From: Saccoglossus kowalevskii
Taxonomy: Eukaryota > Hemichordata > Enteropneusta > Harrimaniidae
NCBI RefSeq assembly: GCF_000003605.2
Contig: NW_003124896.1
Location: 536,373 to 600,372 of the forward strand
Length of the DNA: 64,000 nt
Reading direction: 5' to 3'
The notes under the pieces were generated by a model. That model had not been told where the DNA came from. It saw nothing but the letters and a program-made list of their open reading frames with translations, and made no database searches. Numbering within the stretch: position 1 is the stretch's first letter; each line of letters starts with the position of its first letter. Shown one piece after another: positions 5,599 through 64,000 of the stretch. The translations under genes and the position numbers were made by a program.

Positions 5599-6195
5599 GG
5601 GTGATAATTAACGAAATGGGTGACGAAAATATCTCAAGAAACCTGGTGAAACTTGTTCAAAACAAGTTCAGACTGCCGCCATTTTGTTTATTTTGGCACC
5701 TTCTATCTTCGTAAAATATCTTAGGATGGCTGCTTTTACAGTACATTTCCAATAATTCAGCACTGATTTTTCAAGTGAATAAATTAAAAATGTATTTTAA
5801 ACTGTGATAGTTTTTCTTAACAAGTGAAGATTTGTTTGTTTCTGTTATATTTTTGCGAAAAAATAACGCAAGTATTTTATTACATGACGTCATCAGTAAT
5901 TGGTAGCCCTTACGTTGTTGTCACAACAACAATAAAAATGGCCGATCTTCAGTGAAGACTGTTGATGAAGCGAGCTCAACAGATCAGGCACGTGTTGGTG
6001 TATCTTGGTGAACTTGTCTTTTCAATATATCTCTGGGTGAAAACAGAATAACGAGTCCCCGTACCAGTAGGTCACTTGGATTTAGTTAGCGCTGTATTTA
6101 AGCGAAACGTCTCCATGAAGCCAGGGGTCACAACGCAGAACGCCGAACCCGAGTCTGTCGCACCTGGTACCAATGCAACCGGAGAGGATGAAAAT
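5599..6195. promoter_or_regulatory. Divergent SFI1/SPEF1 promoter
   Basis: About 600 bp separate the SFI1 start (minus) from the SPEF1 start (plus). Visible motifs are a YY1-type block (TGCCGCCATTTTGT, 5674-5687), a full CRE palindrome TGACGTCA (5885-5892) and an inverted repeat GTTGTTGTCACAACAAC (5914-5930). The last resembles an RFX X-box: two GTTG/CAAC half sites in inverted orientation, but not the canonical core. A short upstream ORF (ATGGCCGATCTTCAGTGA) begins at 5938. The motifs are seen in the sequence; their activity is inferred. Confidence 0.6.
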
Positions 6196-17084: not shown

Positions 17085-20000
17085 TTAGGAGACAAAGGAT
17101 CAAATTCAACCTGCCCACCCTATAAACAAGAAACAATGGTATCATCTGATATAAAGTAGTACAAGTTAGGACAAGACCATGTAAAAATGTAGGGGTGGAT
17201 GGATTGAAATTGTCATCAATGACACTATATTTATTGTTGAATAAGAAAGCATTACCTGAATATGTATTTCTGGATTTTTTTGGTATTTTTTTCTTCTAAA
17301 AAGCTCTTTCACTGCTGCATAGCGCTCTCTGAAATTTATTATACATGTATTTATGTAAATCTCTCACAAGTTTATTCCACTCATGTATTTGATGAGGCAG
17401 AAAATAACTGGAAACTGTTGTCATTTCGTGAACAATAAATTATTCTCACAAATTTCATGAGTCAAAAATTTTTGAATCTTACAACCTTGAATCATCAAAA
17501 TCAATGAAATGTTTAGCATGAAAATGTAACGATCTGCAGACATTGACCCTCTGAATACCATAATTTTCCCGCCAAAATTTGGATGCCACATTTTTCTGTA
17601 TTTTTATTTGATTTTTGTTATTTCAGACCACATAGGCAGAATTATCCTTTGACTGCTGATAATGGACAAACTTTTTAAAAAAATATATATAAAAAAAAAA
17701 TTATGCAAATTTATTTTGTGTTGGTGGTAGAAGCTGGTATTAAAATGGTTGATGTTTCAAATCGTCAAAATGTCAAAGATCTCTACAAACTTTTCAAATC
17801 TCATCGCTTGCTTTGCTGATATAATCTGTTGATTTCAAATTTGGTGTTGTATAATAGACTCTCTTTGCAATCATTTTCTAAAATACAGCAACTAAAACAT
17901 TTGATTTCACAAGTACGGTTGTTTTGTTTCTGAGTTATGCATATAGGGAAATTTATATATATATATATATATCTGAGTTTGTTTTGTTTGGGAAGGAGAT
18001 ATTATGGAATATATTTTCACAAAATTTATATACAATACAAAGTGTATTCTCATATTTTCATGTGTGCTAATTTTGTTGTTATCTTCTTTGGACTATATAT
18101 TCAGAAATTTTAATACATACAATTGACATTTTATTTTCAATAATTGTACATGACATTTGCATTTGTAAATTATTTGCTGTAAATATCAATACTCACAGTG
18201 GTCTTGAACCAAGGAGATTAAAAATTAGTATTACCCTTCTGCTGAAAGTGTTAGGGCGCCCTCATAGGGTTATAAATGTAAATACCTTTGTTTCTTAGAA
18301 TATCGTTACTCATCAGTAGTAACTATTCCTCGGTGGATGGGACACCATGACAGAATCAGGGACTCCTAAAGTAATTTTAACTTTTGACAATATTTGACCC
18401 ATGACTTCCTTCCCTATAGCATAAATGATACATGACACAAAATAGTCACCAGTGCAGTATGTATAAAATATTCAAGGTCATTATTTGCTGTAATTCAACC
18501 CACTGCTTCTCAACCTTTGGTGTAATTATATCCTTCATAGGTGGACCAACATATAATCTTGCCAAGTGCATGGCTCAGTTCCCTCCATGATAAGTGTCAC
18601 TTGCAATCCAATTAATCTATGGGAAATGTACACACTAAAAAAAAGTTACAAACTTAAAGAAGGTGATTAATGTTACAATTGACCTTTAACCCTAATGGTG
18701 ACCTTTGTTTATATTTACCATTCCGTCCTAGTTTGCTGTATGATTGTGAAATAAACACATTTTATTAAAATATATTAATGTTTTATTTGTAATTTTTTTT
18801 TATAATGGAGTACTATTCTCACTTTGACTTATTTTCACAGCACAATAAAAACCAGGGAAAACAGTCAATGCACCATGACTTACAATACTGTGTCTGATTG
18901 GCTACCCAACCTTAATACTCAACAGTTAAACCAATCAGAGAGCAGCTTGTTTGGTGACAGTATTTTTTTGTCATAGCAAATTCTGCCCTGCTTCGACTAA
19001 CTAAGAAAACCCCAGCACATCAAGAACAATACCCGTGAATTGGCATACAATTCCTAGACCACCAAATTGAGATTTTCAAATCTCAACTTTGCTGTACTGC
19101 AGTGTTCGAGATTGATGCAATTTGTGTATATACTTATGTTTATAGAATTACGTTCATACAGGTTACCGGGTACCGGTATATATCAATTCTCGACACAGAC
19201 ATCCATGCATTTTCACCCCTTGGCAATCGTCACGGTGAAAACAAAGGCCGAAAACTATCAGAAAATGGTACTTTGGAATAGTTGTTGAGATTCCTCTGAA
19301 CAGTGTAACAAGATTACCCCTGCGTGTGTAACACGTATAAATTTGGTTGTTCAGGATTACTTCTAGGCTCTTCCACAGCAGCTCGCGCAGAGCCCATAGA
19401 AATACATGGTACAGTGGTGCATGTCTTAACATGAACAACTTGTGACGTAGCTCCGCCCGAGGATATATGCTCAAGTCGGCCATCATAGATTATATAATCT
19501 GCAGTATCAATCAAGCGCATATTGTACAACTCAGCTGCCTCTGTCTGTTTCTACCATGGCAGCTGCATGGGGTAGTTGTTTTTATGATATAATTATTTGA
19601 TTTAGCTTGTTTATACATATGTTCTAGATGACCAATTAATATGATTGCTTGATTCATCTGTCCACATGTTTTGGGGGATCGATATGATGGATGCTTTTAT
19701 ATAAGTGACTGAACACGTACTGCTAAGATAGAACATAAACCTAGATTATACATTGTGTATAATCCAGTATTTTGTAAGTATTATCTCATTCATTAGTTGC
19801 TAGGCAACCAGACTCATTCCCAACAAGTCACCCCACAATGGCATTAGTGATTTCAGTAACCAATTGTACCTACATATTCAACAATTCAAGAAACTTTGTG
19901 ATCGGTAATAAATAATTATTTGCTTCGACTAAATAAATAATCAGTAGGAATAATGGCTTGAATAATGCAGATGTTTAATTATAAGGATAGTATAGTGTAT

Positions 20001-21475
20001 TTGGTGATCGGGAAATCATGGTTGCTATGACAACACTTTTTTCAATAACTTATGAGATATGGCCACAATTATTTCAATATTTGGTGGAACATGTGCACGT
20101 TTATACTATCTATGCAGTATAAGACTAGTGAGAATGTACAGTGAACATGATAAAATAGGCGCTTGGCATGTTGTTGCCTTGTTATTGTAGGTCTCATTGG
20201 AACTTCACTCAAACCACTGAACTGTCTAGGTTCTGGTTACTTCATAACCAGACTGAAAACAAAACTCATAAATCACACTTGGCTGTAGATATGTAATCAA
20301 TGTATCAATCATTTATAAAAAAAAAAAATACAATCATTTCTGTCAGAGTTCTCCAAACACTTATAAAACACCTGCATCCTCAATAAAATTGCATTATTAA
20401 TCAGTCTCCATATGCTGAACTGCTCCATTTTTATTAGGGGGGGGGGGGGGTCAAATCTTTACTCAACCACAAAAACACTATGTATATAACTACACTGTAA
20501 AATAACAGCTATAAAAGTTTTCCTTGGGGTATTATAGAGTAGAGGTCCCTAATTTTATCTAAACAATAATACCAAGTTATCAGAATACAACATAGGTAAT
20601 TATCATCTTATATTGTTGTTCAAATTAAGAAATTACTCTATGGTATCAGCTGGGGACAACGCTGGCTTTAACCGTGTGTCAAATAGAAATCAATCACATG
20701 AGCTTTTATGCAACGATCAAAAGATTGTGGGTATGCAAAGATGCCCACAGACATATTTACTATCACCATGGATTTTATTTAGCACCCAAAGACTATAAAT
20801 GTTTTATTGCTTCCAGACAGAGTACTACTGCTCTAATGTGAGAAAAAAGAGATAAAAGTTTGTTGGAGTAAAAATTTGTTAATGCGAATGTCCTCTACTA
20901 TGAGAAGTTTCTGATAGTATTATTAATATTGATATAATAATGAAAAAATCTTTCATTGTTTACAAGTAACAACAATCAACCTTGTTTTAAAGTAACAGAT
21001 TATAAAGTTTAGTATTCACTACAGAGAGTTAGTTTGCAGAATAGTTACAAAGATTTTTGATATCTGATGAAATGATGATGAGAATAAATGACACCTGGTA
21101 GCAGTCCTTTACTACCGGGTAGTAACAGCAATGACACTAACTACTGACTAGAATTGTAATGGTTTTATAGAAATAACAACAAACTGAAGACATGTATAAA
21201 AGTTTGTTTTCTCTGAAACTACAAATTATATACAAATAATACATGTTCACTTCATGAGTTGTCAGAAAACGGGTAAAAATCATACTTTTTACATTAAATA
21301 ATTAACATTTTGTAAAATCTATTCATATTACCCCTAACAGCTAAAAACTCAATCAAATCAAATCTTCACTTTTGATACAGATAATATGTCATGGATAATT
21401 ACAGTAATTCATGTAAAAGTATGTCACAGTCTTTGGTTTTGTTTATATTTTCCTCTGCTATGTCCAATATACAGT
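17085..21475. other. Intergenic DNA between the 3' ends of SPEF1 and LRP2BP
   Basis: The two genes converge here, so it holds both 3' UTRs; AATAAA at 17434-17439 is one possible SPEF1 poly(A) signal. There is a short (TA)n run near 17955 and a 14-base G run at 20437-20450. Two X-box-like palindromes lie at 19796 and 20021. Open frames around 19163-19529 overlap a repeat also found at 27970, so I do not call a gene. Confidence 0.5.
19796..20034. promoter_or_regulatory. Pair of RFX X-box-like sites
   Basis: GTTGCTAGGCAAC (19796-19808) and GTTGCTATGACAAC (20021-20034) are both near-palindromic with GTTGC and CAAC half sites, close to the RFX consensus GTTRCCATGGYAAC. No confident gene start lies next to them. 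They could be distal elements for SPEF1 or LRP2BP, or belong to an unseen gene. Confidence 0.4.
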
Positions 21476-25821
<4,346 letters not shown>

Positions 25822-26378
25822 TGTTAGATTGTTACGGCCTGCAATGAGATATAGATATAAATTGAAATAAAACAAATAAAATGAACAAATAAAACTCAAT
25901 AAAAAATGAATGCCACTGTCACTATTCTCAACGCAAGTGCATGTCCTTTTTGTAAAAATAAAAAAATAATAAATTCAAAATCTCTTCAACTTTAGTATCT
26001 TTCACTCATTTGAATTCAGGAGTGTGTGGCTAATTTAAAACAAGGCTAGGCCGGTCTTTGCAGCCTGTTACTGCGTGTACACACTGAACAGCAGAGCTCG
26101 CAGCAGAGTCAAGTTCGTAACGCAGTTCACATGGTCCAAACAGAGCAATTGAAACGGTCAATGGGCGTGTGCCGAGATAACAACTGAAGCTTGGTGTGAA
26201 TAGATCGATGTTTGTAAATCCTTTATAATAATTGATATAATTGTATTGCGGACATTGACGTGTTAGTGATTGTTGTTTTGATTCTCGAGCACGGTTTGAG
26301 TTCGAGCTATTGAATTACTGAGCTGATCCGAAATGCAGACACTTCAAAAAGATAAGGATAAACGTAATAAACACTTAC

Positions 26379-38500: not shown

Positions 38501-41500
38501 TCAAAAAATAATTGAAAACCAGTTTATCAACCCTTGATTTGAAATTTACTTTATGCACCAATTAAATATCAACATAGACAGTTGGGAATCTTTTTACAGA
38601 CTACCACTGATAGCAACTATAGATACAAAGCTAAGAGAATTTCAGTTTAAGATCCTACATAATGTTATAACCACAATGTAAAATTATTCAAAATGAAACC
38701 ATCAGGAGTGGAGAGTGCACAATGTACATTCTGTGAATCAGAAGAGGAACCAATGATATACCTGTTTTACAAATGTCACGTGTAGAGATGTTTTGGGGAA
38801 GTCTTTTAATGCTGTGGGGAGGGAAAATAGATTTACTGCACAGACTCAAAGACTGGCAGATTATATTTGGAGATGAATCACTCTCATGTCTCACAATTTT
38901 CTTGTACTGCTAGGAAAATGACATATACCGGTATTATATCTCGGTGTGAAAAAATCAAACCAGATTTTCATGTTTTTAAAACAGTATGTGAAAACAATAC
39001 AAAAAACAGAATTGTACATGCTAAGAGAAAAAACAAAACCAGATCCCCCAACAAAAAATGAAGAAAATATGTAGATAACTTTCAAGATACAATTTAATGG
39101 ACATGAACACTAACTTATAGGAACATTTAAATGAAAATACACTTGTTGGAATTCAAACGAAAAGAAAAACCCAGGTTAACAAACATAGAGACAAGAATCT
39201 ATCTGTAATTATACTTTTTTTAGAAGAAATTGTTATGTAAGTTAAGCATCCAAGAAATGCAACTTTTAAAAGAAAACTCCAATTAAAAGTGATAAAAGAT
39301 GTTTTTGAAATTCTCTGTTTACAAGTTGTACAATTTTTTATTGGGTCACCAGGGAATGAGCATAACTAGGTACATTACTGAAAATCTTTGCATCCGTGAT
39401 GCGTCATATCAAGATACAAAGGTTACGCTAGATGTGACCCAGATATCTCGCATCCAGTATACATCACATGTAGTATAGAAGATCATACTTTGTCAAGTCA
39501 GTCTTGGGTAGTCAATCTACAAATGTAAAAACAAAAACTATCTTTGTATGGAATATTAAAAAATTTTTATTTAACAGTTTTTGAATATTTATACTGAAAA
39601 TATTTAACACGGAATACTTGTAATCCTATGTCCTTACGTGTTCCACTATTTTTTCAATTGCATATTGAGAACAAGTATAAAGTTTGGATGGTGTTTGTTT
39701 TCTAGTGATTGTTGCTTTCATAAATTTATTGCATACTTTCCACTGGCATGGTATCTCTCCTGTTAACGTCTTTGTGTGTTCTTTTAAACTGCTTTGGTAG
39801 TGAAAACTCATGTTACATATCTTGCATTGATACACGTTAATATTGTCACCAGAATTCAGATGTTTTTTCATCATGTGATATTTTAGGTTGGATTTGCGAG
39901 TGAAACTTTTCTCACATTTATTGCATTTGTGTTGCTCATTTGAATGAGCTCTGGTGTGCATGGACAGCGTGCTCTGCTGTGCGAAACATTTACCACATAT
40001 GTTACATTGATATGGCCTTTCACCAGTGTGTATTCTCTTGTGCTGGGACAGGCCGCTTGTTGCTGTGAAACGCATACTGCATATTTTGCATTCATACGGT
40101 TTCTCGCCTGTGTGTATTCTTACGTGTTCTCGTAAAAAGCATCTTCTGGAAAAATATTCACTGCATACCTCACACTGATATAGTTTCTCTCCACTGTGCG
40201 TGTTCTCGTGTCTGTTCAGGTCATATAGGGCGTTAAATGTTTTATCACAGACTGGACAAGTGTATGAACTCTGGCGACAATGTATTCTCACATGCTGTGT
40301 TAGATAGTGTTTGGCAGTAAAACATTTATCACATTTATTGCATTTGAGACCGTCTTCTTTCACTTGAATTTTCGGAGTTGCTGAATTCAATCCACTCAGA
40401 GCAGAGTAGTTCTCTATTGTGTGGACTCTCATGTGTTCTTTTAGGTTTTTTGAAAAAGAAAAACGCAGATCACATATTTTACATTGGTGTTGTTTCTTGT
40501 TTTCATGCGTTTCCATATGTTGATCCAGGGTTGCAGTCTCGGTGAAACACTTGCCGCATATGTCACACATATAGTAGTCAGTATCCATGTTGTAGTCGGT
40601 GTAAATTACTCTGCCACTTCCGAGTCCTATTCTCACTGTTTTCGTCGTGTTTACCTACGTGAATCTCCTCCAGTCTTTACATTCTGGCATCTCATTGACT
40701 CACTACTATGCTATACTTTGGCAGTGACAGTGACAGTGAGGTTGTACAGTTCAAGGTTGTTGTGAGTTAATATCGTCAGAATTTCCTCATATTGTACTAA
40801 CCTTCAGATTAGTTCTATGCACTTACAGTAGCCATTTTGTTTAGTGCCCCCTAGCTTGCTCGCAAAAGAAACCGCTGACTGTATAGTGCCCTTCAGTTAT
40901 ATCATGGAGGTAATTTCTACCTCCATGGTTATATATATTTTATTTTATATATTTATTTTATTGTTTTTTATGTTTTTGTTACGTACTTGTGATTCGGTAT
41001 TTTTTTAACTATCGCCACATACTTCTGAACCAATGCCTATGTAACGAGATTTCAACGAGACCTCTGGCTAGCTAACTGATGACGTCACCGGTCAGAGTCA
41101 GGTCATAAACACATTCAAATAAAATGGCGGATTATACCGATGCTGGCGATGAACGATCGGGAAAACACGGCTTTTCGGTAAGTTTATCCATGGTTTATTA
41201 TTGTCAAATGCAGCGAAAATCATATATGAGTTTTATGATTATATTGTGGCTTAAATCATAATGGTTTCAATTTAGGTCGTTATTTTGCATGGTCTTTCCG
41301 GAAGTGACAATTTGTTTTTATATCGGTTCGGTTAATATATCCATGGAACTATAAACCCTAGATCCATGATATATCCAACTTTTTCCGGTCGCTTGCCATG
41401 GAGACGGGTGATGTTTTGTTGACAATCGGACCAAAAGCGTCCACGGTATTAAAGCCGTAGCTGTAAATATTAATCAAAATATATCAACATAATGTACAAT

Positions 41501-50273: not shown

Positions 50274-51665
50274 TTAGACTGCAAAATATCTAACACGGTA
50301 TTCTTGTAATCCTGTGTATCTTGTGTATTCTGTTCTCTTTTCAAATGCATAGCATGAGAAAGTACAAGGTGTTTCATTTGTCCGTATTTGTTGTTTTTTA
50401 GCATTTGTATGTTTCAAAAATTTATTGCATACTTTCCACTGGCAGGGTATCTCTCCAGTTAGCGCCTCTGTGTGTTTTCTGAAACTGCTTAGAAAGTGAA
50501 AACTCATATTACAGATTGTACATCGATATATATTGTCATCAGAATTCAGATGTTTTTGTGTCGCATGATATAGTAGGTTAGATTTGAGACTAAAAGTTTT
50601 CTTGCATTTATTACACTTGTGCAGTGGGTTATTTGAGTGAATTTGTCTTGTGTGCCTCAACATGGCACAGTGCGCCCTGAAACATCTACCACATGTATGA
50701 CATTCATATGGCTTTTCATCAGTGTGTATTCTCTTGTGTTCAGACAGGAGATAATTTTTTGAAAAACGTTTGCCGCAGATTTGGCACTTGTGTGGTTTCT
50801 CCCCGGTGTGAATCGTAGCATGTCTCTGTAGATGGGATATTTGTGGAAAATATTTGTTGCAAACATCGCACTGATATTTCTCCGCGGCGGCACGGTGTAT
50901 TCTTGCGTGTTTTATCAAGTAGCGTTCTGCAGTAAAGCACTTATCACATTCATTACACTGAAAAACGTTTTTTCTTGCTCTCGTATCCTTTTCTGAATTC
51001 AGTCGACTNNNNNNNNNNNNNNNNNNNNNNNNNNNNNNNNNNNNNNNNNNNNNNNNNNNNNNNNNNNNNNNNNNNNNNNNNNNNNNNNNNNNNNNNNNNN
51101 NNNNNNNNNNNNNNNNNNNNNNNNNNNNNNNNNNNNNNNNNNNNNNNNNNNNNNNNNNNNNNNNNNNNNNNNNNNNNNNNNNNNNNNNNNNNNNNNNNNN
51201 NNNNNNNNNNNNNNNNNNNNNNNNNNNNNNNNNNNNNNNNNNNNNNNNNNNNNNNNNNNNNNNNNNNNNNNNNNNNNNNNNNNNNNNNNNNNNNNNNNNN
51301 NNNNNNNNNNNNNNNNNNNNNNNNNNNNNNNNNNNNNNNNNNNNNNNNNNNNNNNNNNNNNNNNNNNNNNNNNNNNNNNNNNNNNNNNNNNNNNNNNNNN
51401 NNNNNNNNNNNNNNNNNNNNNNNNNNNNNNNNNNNNNNNNNNNNNNNNNNNNNNNNNNNNNNNNNNNNNNNNNNNNNNNNNNNNNNNNNNNNNNNNNNNN
51501 NNNNNNNNNNNNNNNNNNNNNNNNNNNNNNNNNNNNNNNNNNNNNNNNNNNNNNNNNNNNNNNNNNNNNNNNNNNNNNNNNNNNNNNNNNNNNNNNNNNN
51601 NNNNNNNNNNNNNNNNNNNNNNNNNTGTCTGTGACAAATATGCCAATTTCCACCAGTGACAACAC
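50274..51665 (-). CDS. Second C2H2 zinc-finger gene, broken by an assembly gap
   Basis: The readable part (51008-50274) ends at a stop and encodes five intact C2H2 fingers: CNECDKCF, CDVCNKYF, CQICGKRF, CHTCGRCF and CNKCKKTF. A sixth (CTICNMSFHFLSSFRKHTEA) has lost its last His. The tail LTGEIPCQWKVCNKF is shared almost exactly with the gene at 39626-40588, and the fingers align one to one except for one extra finger there. The 617-N gap hides the N-terminal part. Just beyond it, 51626-51699 contains a stretch read GNWHICHR that aligns with the paralogue's first finger. Gap size is uncertain, so frames across it cannot be joined and the start codon is not located. The readable part shows no intron. 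Confidence 0.82.
   Translation of the reverse strand: MLSLVEIGIFVTDXXXXXXXXXXXXXXXXXXXXXXXXXXXXXXXXXXXXXXXXXXXXXXXXXXXXXXXXXXXXXXXXXXXXXXXXXXXXXXXXXXXXXXXXXXXXXXXXXXXXXXXXXXXXXXXXXXXXXXXXXXXXXXXXXXXXXXXXXXXXXXXXXXXXXXXXXXXXXXXXXXXXXXXXXXXXXXXXXXXXXXXXXXXXXXXXXXXXXXXXXXXXXXSRLNSEKDTRARKNVFQCNECDKCFTAERYLIKHARIHRAAAEKYQCDVCNKYFPQISHLQRHATIHTGEKPHKCQICGKRFSKNYLLSEHKRIHTDEKPYECHTCGRCFRAHCAMLRHTRQIHSNNPLHKCNKCKKTFSLKSNLLYHATQKHLNSDDNIYRCTICNMSFHFLSSFRKHTEALTGEIPCQWKVCNKFLKHTNAKKQQIRTNETPCTFSCYAFEKRTEYTRYTGLQEYRVRYFAV
51009..51625. other. Assembly gap (617 N) inside the zinc-finger gene
   Basis: By comparison with the intact paralogue, this gap should cover the first few fingers. Confidence 0.99.
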
Positions 51666-57231: not shown

Positions 57232-59842
57232 TTAATTGCATTATCGAAAGAAATAACTTCAAATCCACTTTTTGAGTATTGACAAATACACCACTAAAGA
57301 GAATCACCCCAGAAAAAATAAATCTAAGACACTCGTATTGTAAGTCAATGTCATTTTTGTTATATTAGTTAGTGTAGATATTATTGTGTTTATTTATTTG
57401 TTTTTTTATCGGTAGATAAGTGACTTTCTGATTTATAAACACGTTGCGAGAAGTGTACACAAACTTCACAACATTGCGTATTTAAAATATACGAGCATCG
57501 GCAAAAAATCGTATACTAGTAATTCAAGTGCAATGTTAACAAATACAAACATTTATGTTGAACTTGGAAGAAAATGTGCATTTCAATGATTGGCATATTT
57601 GAACGAACCCTGAGGTTATGTAGTCTGGAAATGTTCTCGATCTACAAGCATTAAGGAGACAGCCGATTGCGCATGCCCCTGCGGGCATCTCCTTGTTGTT
57701 CAAAACTGTGCGGGTTGTCTGATTATTTTGAAAGATATCAGAAATTGGGGTTTCCTCGCACTAATCAATTTACTAAATAGAGCAATTTGTTTTGTCAGTT
57801 TGAATGTATTTTGGTTTGGATAAGATCAGTTTGTGTGGGTATGTAGTTATCTCAGATGTAATGTGCTAGCTACAAGTCCACTGCCTGTCGACTCCAGTCC
57901 AGCGGAACCGGATGGGTGTGTTGGCAGCGTGAGCGGTTAACCGAGTGGTGGGCGAATATGGGTTTGGGACATGGAGATGATTTAATCGACCATTAAAAGC
58001 TTTGATAATATTTTTGGCCTGAGTAACTAAGACGGAACAGGTAATCGTTAATGATAATGTTAACAAAAACTTGTTAATGATGATCGGCCGGACTTACTGT
58101 CATGGAGGTCCATCGCTACTGTACTCTATCAGTACAAAGCATTCATATCCCACACATCATTTGCATTTAGCGCTTCCAAAATCAGTTATGATAGTACTAA
58201 TAACAAATAAATAACCATAGCAACACATTGATAATTGATACAGATGGTATAGTTTATTGCCGCATACATTGATCACGGAAACGGGCCGGGGAATATACGT
58301 ATACACACATATATTATATATATTATTTCTTTTTTATTGAACTAGGATGTTTTTAACGTGTGTTGGATAGATACCAGAGCCGCTGTTGATGTGTCTTTGC
58401 CTGTGTATGTTATGGTGAAATAGCCTTCCTAACTATATTAGAAATATTTTCAATCGCAATACTTCCAGGCAAACATTGAAAACACATTTAGCCAACTCAC
58501 ATAGTTAGTTTGCTATTTACATACCTGTAGTGAAAAACAACTACCATCAACAAATTTATTGTCAACCGAGTTTATTGCATTTATATTGATTGTTATTTCT
58601 ATTAGATTGTATAAATGTAATTGTATTTCTTAACAAAACGGCCCGCCAAAATGATTATTTAGCTTGGGGAGCAGACTAAGCTATGTTCTGCTGCCCAACC
58701 ATTACTGCTCATCTTATATAATTATATACTATAATTTAATGTGGATTTCCTTATGATTTAATGTGAATTAGTCTTGATTTTATTAGCTATGTATCCTCTA
58801 GCATAAGGGTGAATAAAAGCGATATAAAAACTTGAAATGTTGTTAAAATCAAAACCTCAACTGACGTTGTATCCTTTTCGAAATGTTTTATCCTGGGTAT
58901 GACGTCACTACATATGTGTGGACCGTTTTCGTGACACAACTATACTTGATACGATTGTTACGAAAACACTTTTATACGATCCGAAAATTTCACCCATCTT
59001 CGTATTTTGGAGGGTATAATTTCATTAACAATGAGAGTTTTTAATTAACCTTTTCAGAAAAAAAAATTAACATTATGATAGGAAATATTAGGGTTTAATA
59101 TTTTAAATCACTGCTGTTATAGGCCAATAATATCTCCGGAAAGCGAGTGCCAGGATGTGTGACCTGTCGGTCCAATTTTCTTAGTCTATATCCTGATAAC
59201 TGTTGTAAATCGTATTAAAACTACATTTATATGGTTATTGTGAATCGTAATTAATCTCATATACATAATAATTGCAATTGTATAATTAAAACAAAACTTG
59301 ACGAACTATGTATATTTACTGACAGACAGTTGTACCTAATCGTTCGTATAGCGTTTAGACATAATGAGACGCGTAAATACAGCACATGTCAAACTAATAC
59401 ACGCTATAAACAGAAATAACACCGAATACGTTGTGTTAGCAACAGCTATGTATTCACGATACGTATTTTTTTTTCGAAATACAAACTGTGAGTTCAGTGG
59501 AATAAAACGCAACCTTAAACTATATCAACGACACTACAGTAAATGTGATCCCCGGTTTCACCCCATTTTGATTACTATTTTGACATCAACATTTACTGAA
59601 CAATGAATTATTTATTTTTGGACACCGCAAAGGTTCGCAATATTGTGGTACAACTCATCAAAGGAAATGCCGAATTTAAATATATAATGCAAAAAACAGG
59701 CATTTGGCACCTTCTTAAACTACCCGACAGTCAAAAAATACGAGAACACTTTTAAATCCGGGACAACAACAGCAAGAGTTGAATCGGGAAGAAACTGTTT
59801 TTTTTTTAGTTTTCGGAAGTTGTTTACACCTTTAATCTCACA
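57232..59842. other. Intergenic DNA, no supported gene
   Basis: Only short frames are seen. AATAACCATAGCAAC near 58210 is a weak X-box-like site. An A-box-like stretch at about 57925-57950 does not fold into a tRNA. Confidence 0.4.
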
Positions 59843-59856
59843 GTTGTCATGGCAAC
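59843..59856 (+). promoter_or_regulatory. RFX X-box, 13 of 14 consensus positions
   Basis: GTTGTCATGGCAAC differs from GTTRCCATGGYAAC at a single position. It lies 93 bp upstream of the first ATG of the gene at 59950, the usual X-box distance for ciliary genes. Confidence 0.75.
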
Positions 59857-59949
59857 AAGAAACTGGAGATGGTTTGGGGAGTGATTGTATGCATGGAAGT
59901 AATTTAACCCAGTCACCAAGGTAGTGTTTTTTAAATAAGGGCTCACCTG

Positions 59950-60657
59950 ATGTCTGCAATGGAGAAACGGAGAATTCCACGGCTGACTAGTCAGCGGTCA
60001 CCACTCTCAAGTAAAGATGGCGATAAACAGCGTTACTATATGTCAACACAACTCGTACAGAGTATGGATCTATTGAATTTGTCGCTTATGGACGAGACGC
60101 ATTACAAGACTGGTCGGGGTAATAGAAAAGCTGTCAGTACTTTTCCCCCGTTCCGGTTCGATTCTAGCGATGCCAATATGGAGTTTGGAACAAACCTGCC
60201 GAGTATACGGGTGTTCCCGGCACCGACGTGCAACAGACCCGGAAAAAGAGACCCAAACTCGAAGCGAGAACTCATCACAACTCACGTGGACCCTAAAGAT
60301 GCTAAAGAAATGCTCGGGAGAGCATCGGCTCATGCACCGCTTTCAGCCAGTCATGGTGATCGGTTGAACGCTACCTGGATACCAGAAACTCCAACTGACT
60401 TGAAATATGCCGACAAATTGGACAGAGAATTTCACAACAAGAGCCTTCTCGCCAGAAAAGTGAGAGTGGCCCCGTTAACGGAGACGTACTTAAAAACCCA
60501 GCGCGACGAAGACACTCCGGCCAATCGGACACAAAGAATTGTACATTGGTTAAAAAACGTCACACCAATGCGCCGACCAAGGGAACCCCATATTAGACAC
60601 AGCTCCGATAAAAATACCAAAGACGATGTCGACAGACTACCGACAATTTCATTTTAA
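59950..60657 (+). CDS. Unrecognised single-exon gene, candidate ciliary protein (235 aa)
   Basis: It is an open frame of 235 residues with balanced, GC-richer codons than its surroundings. It starts MSAMEKRRIPRL; the second Met (59959, GCAATGG) has the stronger context and may be the true start. The protein is basic and hydrophilic, without signal peptide or membrane segment. It is rich in Arg, Lys, Pro, Thr and Ser, with short motifs such as FPPFRFDSSDANMEFG, LPSIRVFPAPTC and RIVHWLKNVTPMRRP. I recognise no domain. This composition suits a microtubule-associated or inner-lumen ciliary protein, but that is inference. The main evidence is the X-box at 59843-59856. No intron signals are needed to explain it. 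Alternatively it could be a lineage-specific protein of another kind. Confidence 0.72.
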   Translation: MSAMEKRRIPRLTSQRSPLSSKDGDKQRYYMSTQLVQSMDLLNLSLMDETHYKTGRGNRKAVSTFPPFRFDSSDANMEFGTNLPSIRVFPAPTCNRPGKRDPNSKRELITTHVDPKDAKEMLGRASAHAPLSASHGDRLNATWIPETPTDLKYADKLDREFHNKSLLARKVRVAPLTETYLKTQRDEDTPANRTQRIVHWLKNVTPMRRPREPHIRHSSDKNTKDDVDRLPTISF

Positions 60658-61615
60658 AAATAGAATTTGTTATCAAATTTTACATTTATTATGATAAACG
60701 AGTCACAATTGTGATGAGTTGGGGATTACAATATCAGTTACATTCACGACAGGACGGTCTTGTTGACGGAAACATCGTTTTGCGACCTTTGAGGACATAA
60801 GTGAAACTTCATCCGTTCCCATGGGTTCATGCCTCTCTCAAGCTACAAGGGCGTGTAACTGTCGATGACCAAAGAAATTGAAAATATTTTAATTTAATTT
60901 AAATTATATTATTGTAATAGAAATGTAAACGTTACTGAATGTTTTAGCACAAGAGTACCGTGCATGTAAAGTCACCGCTCATTGAAAAATGCAAAGCGGG
61001 AATTCGGCATATATGGTAGGAAGACGACATATTCCTATTGATAAGCTATTATAGCGGTTGTTAAGCTTCCAGTTATTGATTCAGTAAATGACAAAACAAA
61101 ACAAAATGTTTCACGCTACTCATGTTGAAGTGCTGAGCTGAATCGATTTCCGCTGTTTTATACCAAACAAAAAAAAATTTTAAAACATTTTAAAGTTTGA
61201 AGTTTGTGAGTTGTTTTATTAAATGTTTTGCACCCTCCTGCTAAATTCATTATTATTGAAAATAATGATCTCCGTCCACGGCAATTTTTGCGATATTACA
61301 CTTATCAAACGTCTTAACATATCTTTTACATATAATTTCAAATAACTGCTTGAGTGGTCATTTGCTATTTGAATGGTAATTATCTAATTGATATTACACT
61401 GTCGATGCGTATACGGTTTACCGGAGTGTTTCTCACGCACATACACCGACTGTATTTATTGTGTGATCAGGAGAAAGAAACTTTTTTAAGTTTAATAACA
61501 TAGATATGTATTTTTGTTTCATGTTGTTGATTTCATAGCTTTGTAAATACAGATTATATTTTTAAAAAAACTGGAGCGTTGTTTATATTTTAAATGTGAC
61601 TAGTTTCGACAAGTG
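60658..61615. other. Region downstream of the X-box gene
   Basis: It should contain that gene's 3' UTR. The rest is AT-rich and without recognisable elements. Confidence 0.4.
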
Positions 61616-61753
61616 TATATAAAGTTTGGCCTATTTAGTGCGAGCACGAGTGAATACAAGCACAGTATTGTATACAGAGAGATGGAGTTGTTCCACTTCA
61701 CCAAACCATTGTTTCGGTCTTTGTTTGTAGTCGCTGTGGCGAGAGAAACATAA
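61616..61753 (+). promoter_or_regulatory. TATA-type promoter candidate with a 23-codon ORF
   Basis: TATATAAA (61616-61623) is followed at the usual ~30-bp distance by a possible start region, and at 61682 by ATGGAGTTG, giving the 23-residue MELFHFTKPLFRSLFVVAVA-type frame that ends at 61753. A plausible donor (ATG then GTAAGA) lies downstream near 61911. The evidence is weak but the motifs are spaced sensibly. Confidence 0.25.
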
Positions 61754-62105
61754 TCAGGTGCGATTGTGATCGCCTATTGGTTTCGTTGTCAAAACATTCT
61801 TAAGTTACCCCTATATTGAGATTATTGCGATTCTGTTGGAGTTCATTGTGGAAAATCTACTAGAATGTCTATCCGATATAGTCAACCGAGATTGTTGCCA
61901 TACCAAATGGTAAGAGAAGCCGATGTGAAGTTTCCTTTCCGAGGATTGGTTTTCCTGCCTGCCAAACTTACAATGCATAAAACGAGGTCGTCTTTGTTCG
62001 CTCTCGCTACATCTCACTAATCACAGGTGAAGCCGTGCCGTGTGATATTGATCCAATCGTTTTCATGATACGTACCCCGCAAAGCTGTCAAACTGTGATT
62101 TCCAG

Positions 62106-62226
62106 TGGTCACGAAACGCCGTGATTTGACCATACCCACCTATCCCCGGCTGTCACAACAACAACAGGAAGAAATGATTCAAATCATACGTAATGATCTG
62201 ACTGTTAGTGATAATAATATGATACG
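62106..62226 (+). CDS. Candidate internal exon
   Basis: Between a TTTCCAG acceptor (ending 62105) and a GTATTT donor, the frame reads TKRRDLTIPTYPRLSQQQQE then EMIQIIRNDLTVSDNNMI. The composition looks like protein, but there is no family match and the donor is weak. The N-gap 195 bp downstream could hide linked exons. Confidence 0.2.
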
Positions 62227-62421
62227 GTATTTTATTTGTTTGTCCCCCCGTTTACTGTATACTTTATATGTACAGAGTAGTTCTTTCGTAGCTGATACCT
62301 GTTACCCATGTCACGGTTCGCTGCTTCCGGCTCGGCCGCTCTTCGGTAATCGGGGCGATCTCGATAAAGCGGCTTCAAAGATCTACTGCCACACATTTTA
62401 TACGTTTGAATAAAATATGCC

Positions 62422-63729: not shown

Positions 63730-64000
63730 CCGGTAAGTGGAAACAAGGGAACTGCTTCGCGATGTAACATGCAATTGCTAATTTAATAGACTTGAAACAC
63801 GACTCTTGTGTCAATTTGCGACTTCTAGACGCGAAAATTTGACGAGTTAAGGGGCCTTGATATTACGAGGGCGTTTATGAATGAGCCACAATGCGTGTGC
63901 CGTGATTGGCCAACGGAGATGACGTCGTTGAAAGTTAACTTATATCAACGAAGTTAGCCGTGAATGGTAGTACATATGTTCACTTCTATGAATGATCCGT

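Follow-up and report, generated by a model that had tools for sequence, protein, structure and literature searches.

The closest described systems are the RFX/X-box ciliary targets, exemplified by worm DAF-19, fly dRfx and frog Rfx2. In worm, the preferred X-box region runs between -50 and -200 bp relative to the ATG, as given in PMC1794439. For genes of frog multiciliated cells, the promoter analysis in PMC5245798 ranks Rfx as the top enriched motif within 100 bases of the start site, and Rfx motifs are also enriched in the orthologue promoters of human, mouse, zebrafish, fly and Nematostella. In a choanoflagellate, RFX regulates ciliary genes and serves ciliogenesis, by the account in PMC10530576. 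The Drosophila comparison in PMC2375033 assigns an X-box seen in a single genome (loose consensus, ≤3 kb upstream) no predictive value for RFX dependence; an X-box conserved in a second species predicted better there (70% of targets versus 23% of negative controls). An earlier, sequence-only reading of the DNA studied here took an X-box at about 100 bp to mark a direct RFX target, mostly a cilium gene. The worm range and the frog enrichment agree with that premise, whereas the Drosophila single-genome result does not.

The locus lies in a 64,000-nucleotide stretch of Saccoglossus kowalevskii DNA, the whole of which was analysed (the window). A putative RFX site, GTTGTCATGGCAAC, precedes an open frame on the same strand (Table 1). 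This X-box departs from the palindrome GTTGCCATGGCAAC at 1 of 14 positions and is the only site in the window with at most one mismatch to the palindromic X-box. The gap to ATG 59950 is 93 bases and that to ATG 59959 is 102 bases, placing a consensus-type X-box 93 or 102 bp upstream of the start. The 13-of-14 match and both spacings claimed previously are therefore reproduced. The genome encodes RFX proteins, with seven exon matches to the RFX DNA-binding domain distributed over four contigs, all above the Pfam cut-off. We propose, with a probability of about 0.5, that the locus is an orphan RFX target, a real single-copy gene with an X-box-driven promoter and most likely a ciliated-cell product.

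Table 1. Predicted features of the promoter and the open frame, in window positions
Feature	Position	Strand	Remark
Forkhead-type heptamer TGTTTAC	59821..59827	+	15 bp upstream of X-box; probably coincidence
Putative RFX site, X-box GTTGTCATGGCAAC	59843..59856	+ (readable on both strands)	1 mismatch to palindrome
Other ATGs opening short frames	59849, 59889, 59893	+	upstream of main frame
Short upstream frame, 12 codons	59869..59907	+	translated only if transcription begins before it
Predicted single coding frame, 235 aa (ATG to TAA)	59950..60657	+	length, G+C island, single genome match
Weak poly(A)-signal variant GATAAA	60693..60698	+	

The frame comprises 235 codons. Shuffling the whole window 60 times and the local 909 bp 1000 times, the latter with local dinucleotide content preserved, never produced an ATG frame of at least this length; the 235-codon frame noted earlier thus exceeds every shuffle made. 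Its G+C content is 0.475; the 1-kb flanks reach 0.336 and 0.325. The codon score ranks first among the window's 49 frames of at least 85 aa and exceeds those of the other five reading frames of the same stretch. The codon test is crude, trained on 1123 codons from other frames of the contig, and 276 of 2000 same-composition shuffles do as well; most of the signal is thus compositional, and it adds little. A protein search of the genome (572 Mb, 4830 contigs) recovered the frame alone, and the 310-bp promoter stretch before it (59640-59949) has itself as sole genome match and no sign of a repeat. These two single matches speak against a transposon or repeat.

ATG 59950 carries C at -3, and ATG 59959 carries G at -3 and G at +4; the second is the likelier start codon, giving 232 aa. 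A simple pattern search revealed no donor-like splice site within the frame, which makes one coding exon likely. Outside it, a donor-like site at 59919 and a T-run with AG ending at 59809, upstream of the X-box, indicate that a 5′ exon or intron may be present. The single-exon gene proposed earlier therefore probably holds for the coding part, with the 5′ end possibly divided. On its sequence, the frame is very probably a real gene.

The opposing view, in which no gene is present and a long open frame has arisen in a G+C-richer stretch, with the X-box acting as a distant control element of a forkhead gene, appears highly improbable. The weak codon bias is compatible with it, as are the absence of AATAAA from 60658-62400 (ATTAAA is present at 61218) and the same-strand forkhead gene at the window end, whose ATG may be that at 63964, 63976 or 63988. 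The frame length, matched by none of the 1000 local dinucleotide-keeping shuffles, and the top score among the six reading frames of the stretch argue against it. The forkhead gene could in principle be the one served by the X-box, which lies ~4.1 kb from that gene's start versus 93 bp from the start of the orphan frame. The forkhead domain is encoded in the adjoining part of the contig (L051:3-914; Pfam Forkhead, 2.7e-39). Window bases 63964-64000 constitute the start of this gene, which continues in L051:1-914 and which is apparently FoxI-like by its sequence features.

The frame's nearest visible neighbours are TAPT1 and the forkhead gene. DUF747 was detected in a TAPT1-type exon (1.4e-17); one TAPT1 exon lies at 33.1 kb (Pfam), and the last exon is presumably that at 47.1 kb, ending at ~47.5 kb, judging from the protein's C-terminus. 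The CH_2 matches of two SPEF1-like exons (E 6e-6 and 4e-5) both fall slightly short of the curated cut-off. Four SFI1-like frames were searched against Pfam with no match, so that the SFI1 identity is one of appearance only. Among the three neighbours named in the sequence-only reading, the SPEF1-like gene (with its sub-cut-off CH_2 matches) and the TAPT1-type gene thus have Pfam matches, and SFI1 does not. The argument that this setting fits a ciliary gene is weak, because more than 50 kb separates SPEF1 from the frame, and TAPT1 and the forkhead gene are the closest seen.

Further coding stretches were observed on the opposite strand of the window. Sel1-repeat exons at 22237-25974 (-), one above and one below the Pfam cut-off, presumably belong to LRP2BP. 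A C2H2 zinc-finger frame occupies 39629-40654 (-), within the TAPT1 span. A stretch at 50660-50940 (-) resembles, by eye, a broken C2H2 zinc-finger region, and the one frame tested there has no Pfam match. A coding-like stretch is common, by eye, to 19166-19489 (-) and L013:2567-2968 (-) and is probably a repeat element.

The X-box is unlikely to be a product of chance. When the window was dinucleotide-shuffled 400 times, 5 of the shuffles contained a site with at most one mismatch. Across the genome, GTTGYCATGRCAAC occurs 425 times versus 156 times for a reversed-pattern control, a 2.7-fold excess that need not be wholly functional, since some sites are apparently copies within repeats. At the control rate, an X-box is expected in a given 250 bp with a chance of ~7e-5; this value overstates the surprise, the site having been chosen after the window was read, and is no strict P value. 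In our judgement, the putative site is probably functional.

Ciliary genes elsewhere in the genome provide a comparison. Four contigs carry tektin exons, all four including an N-terminal match. The upstream DNA (~0.9 to 1.3 kb leading up to the likely ATG, one stretch partly N) contains a palindromic X-box at ≤2 mismatches in 0 of 4 cases, the start being taken as the first likely ATG, so that an unseen 5′ exon would shift the promoter elsewhere. Three-mismatch sites are present in two of the four stretches, ~0.3 kb before the ATG in L067 and within the coding frame in L065. A near-perfect X-box is thus no badge of a ciliary gene and is dispensable for ciliary genes in this genome. The contig bearing BBS2 (C5) seems to have no near-perfect X-box among the matches listed, which span C2 to C10 and are taken as contig-ordered. 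For IFT46, the 3 kb upstream of the matched exon holds no palindromic site at ≤3 mismatches; the first exon probably lies further off, and this gene is left uncounted.

These comparisons bear on the alternative that a real gene stands next to a chance X-box, with RFX exerting no control over it. The 156 control-pattern sites show that such sequences arise in this genome, some X-box sites are apparently repeat copies, and the four tektins do without a near-perfect one. Against this stand the low expectation per 250 bp, for a site picked after the fact, and the single-copy promoter stretch, and we consider a chance X-box quite unlikely.

Other X-boxes were inspected at 50 listed loci of the 425. 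One locus (L004) has an ATG frame of at least 200 aa within 400 bp with a purine at -3; this frame contains low-complexity stretches, and the scan would miss genes with short first exons. Perfect X-box pairs, 312 and 308 bp apart, occur on two contigs (L009/L010; L048) and are perhaps repeat-borne. Within the window, two strong matches with no gene assigned, GTTGCTAGGCAAC at 19796-19808 and GTTGCTATGACAAC at 20021-20034, are 225 bp apart. A looser X-box, GTTGTCACAACAAC, at 5917-5930 lies between the SFI1-like gene (-) and SPEF1 (+) in a possible shared promoter; the first SPEF1 ATG (6115) follows 184 bp further on. The loose consensus yields 20 rows within the window, so this site proves little.

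The forkhead-type heptamer beside the X-box was considered as a partner site and dropped as support. Heptamer/X-box pairs number 4 genome-wide, which does not exceed the ~5.3 expected from the heptamer frequency in the window. The reversed-pattern control, with fewer X-box-like sites (156 versus 425), gave 0 pairs; this may favour the heptamer, but the counts are too small to decide. Forkhead sites near X-boxes beyond chance, the expected sign of FoxJ1/RFX co-regulation, were thus not detected in the genome-wide pair count. In the frog data presented in PMC5245798, promoters bound by Foxj1 show a depletion of forkhead motifs. The worm study PMC10393296 describes a forkhead factor that binds near ciliary-gene X-boxes, with peaks reported as free of the canonical forkhead motif. 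In light of these worm and frog data, the heptamer neither helps nor harms the ciliary reading.

The predicted protein, in its 232-aa form, has a mass of 26.7 kDa and a pI of ~10, with 42 K/R, 29 D/E and 19 P. It is rich in R, L, T, P, S and D and contains one cysteine and two tryptophans. Searched as a whole, it reaches the cut-off of no Pfam family (two sub-threshold rows, best E 0.041), has zero NCBIfam matches and retrieves zero PDB chains at E 10 or better. Residues 101-214 alone gave one PDB row, a bacterial regulator at E 1, taken as a chance match. Ten pattern stretches in GTDB contigs and one in IMG/VR were found, none confirmed, and zero in plasmids; these collections are non-eukaryotic and could reveal contamination only. 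The earlier description of a basic protein that cannot be assigned is thus accurate, as no credible relative emerged from Pfam, NCBIfam or the PDB.

Single-sequence searches of Pfam and the PDB likewise revealed no homology to a known ciliary family. As a positive control, a tektin exon from this genome finds solved tektin chains with E values down to 4e-23, which gives the silence of the PDB for the orphan protein some weight. A short, fast-evolving inner-microtubule protein could nevertheless escape a single-sequence search, and such proteins are presumably often missed that way. None of the small human ciliary proteins considered, FoxI-neighbour genes included, is known to resemble it. A single-sequence AlphaFold model has a pLDDT of 42.6 and a pTM of 0.16, with a few short helices. 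At this pLDDT the model is unusable and fold matches would mean nothing; the protein is probably mostly unstructured. Residues 193-197 (RIVHW, 232-aa form) fit the PP1-docking pattern, a short motif of low weight.

These properties equally suit a DNA- or RNA-binding protein, and the gene may be real and its X-box working while the product acts outside the cilium, for instance in the nucleus or the cell cycle. This interpretation, which we regard as somewhat unlikely, gains from the absence of an axonemal sequence relative in a PDB that includes solved tektins and other axoneme chains. RFX factors also have other targets and are not cilium-only, RFX7 regulating tumour suppressor genes according to PMC11344851. 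On the other hand, PMC2375033 and PMC5245798 describe start-proximal X-boxes chiefly at ciliary genes.

The case for a ciliary role of the protein comes entirely from the promoter, and we place it at about even odds. The assertion that the product is a ciliary protein is not supported as such, given no ciliary homology, the near-perfect X-box missing from all four tektin stretches and the non-predictive single-genome X-box in the Drosophila data of PMC2375033. The absence of a credible relative, the tektin result, the forkhead pairs at chance level, the weak codon bias, the poor prediction by single-genome X-boxes in flies and the non-ciliary targets of RFX proteins all count against the orphan RFX target. 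Frame length and composition, single genome matches of frame and promoter stretch, X-box quality, the 425-versus-156 excess, the encoded RFX domains, a spacing within the worm range, the Rfx enrichment in frog and its conservation to cnidarians, and the choanoflagellate RFX data count for it.

As an orphan RFX target, the gene would be single-copy and intron-poor, with no detected relatives. An RFX dimer seated on the palindromic X-box, ~100 bp before the start codon, would switch the promoter on and drive transcription. The product is predicted to be a small, basic, mostly unstructured protein, perhaps with a few short helices. Expression would most likely occur in ciliated or flagellated cells, such as those of multiciliated epithelium, sensory cells or sperm; there the protein may act as a fast-evolving accessory that contacts microtubules or the centriole via its basic stretches. 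In an unlikely variant, the protein would be axonemal or centriolar but confined to one lineage, would have no sequence relationship to any solved axoneme component and would have joined the ciliary programme when its gene gained an X-box, a young gene in an old organelle.

If confirmed, the orphan would extend the set of RFX targets by one that belongs to no family, and would let the entry of a new or rapidly evolving protein into the ciliary gene battery be put to the test. If not, the locus would illustrate how little a single-genome X-box proves, in a genome with a 2.7-fold X-box excess yet 0 of 4 tektin upstream stretches carrying a near-perfect one.

The locus can be set beside three known systems. 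Taxon-restricted orphan genes form an established class, with which it shares a short single coding frame, one genome match, a basic product and no family found. Microtubule inner proteins of the SPMIP, CIMIP and CFAP groups are small, basic axonemal accessory proteins; the orphan protein resembles them in size, basic charge and low-confidence short helices, a generic resemblance, and no PDB chain matches the whole protein even at E 10. Unlike the RFX/X-box ciliary targets of worm DAF-19, fly dRfx and frog Rfx2, the orphan has no known ciliary product and its RFX control is putative; like them, it has a palindromic X-box near its start codon, and its genome also codes for RFX domains.
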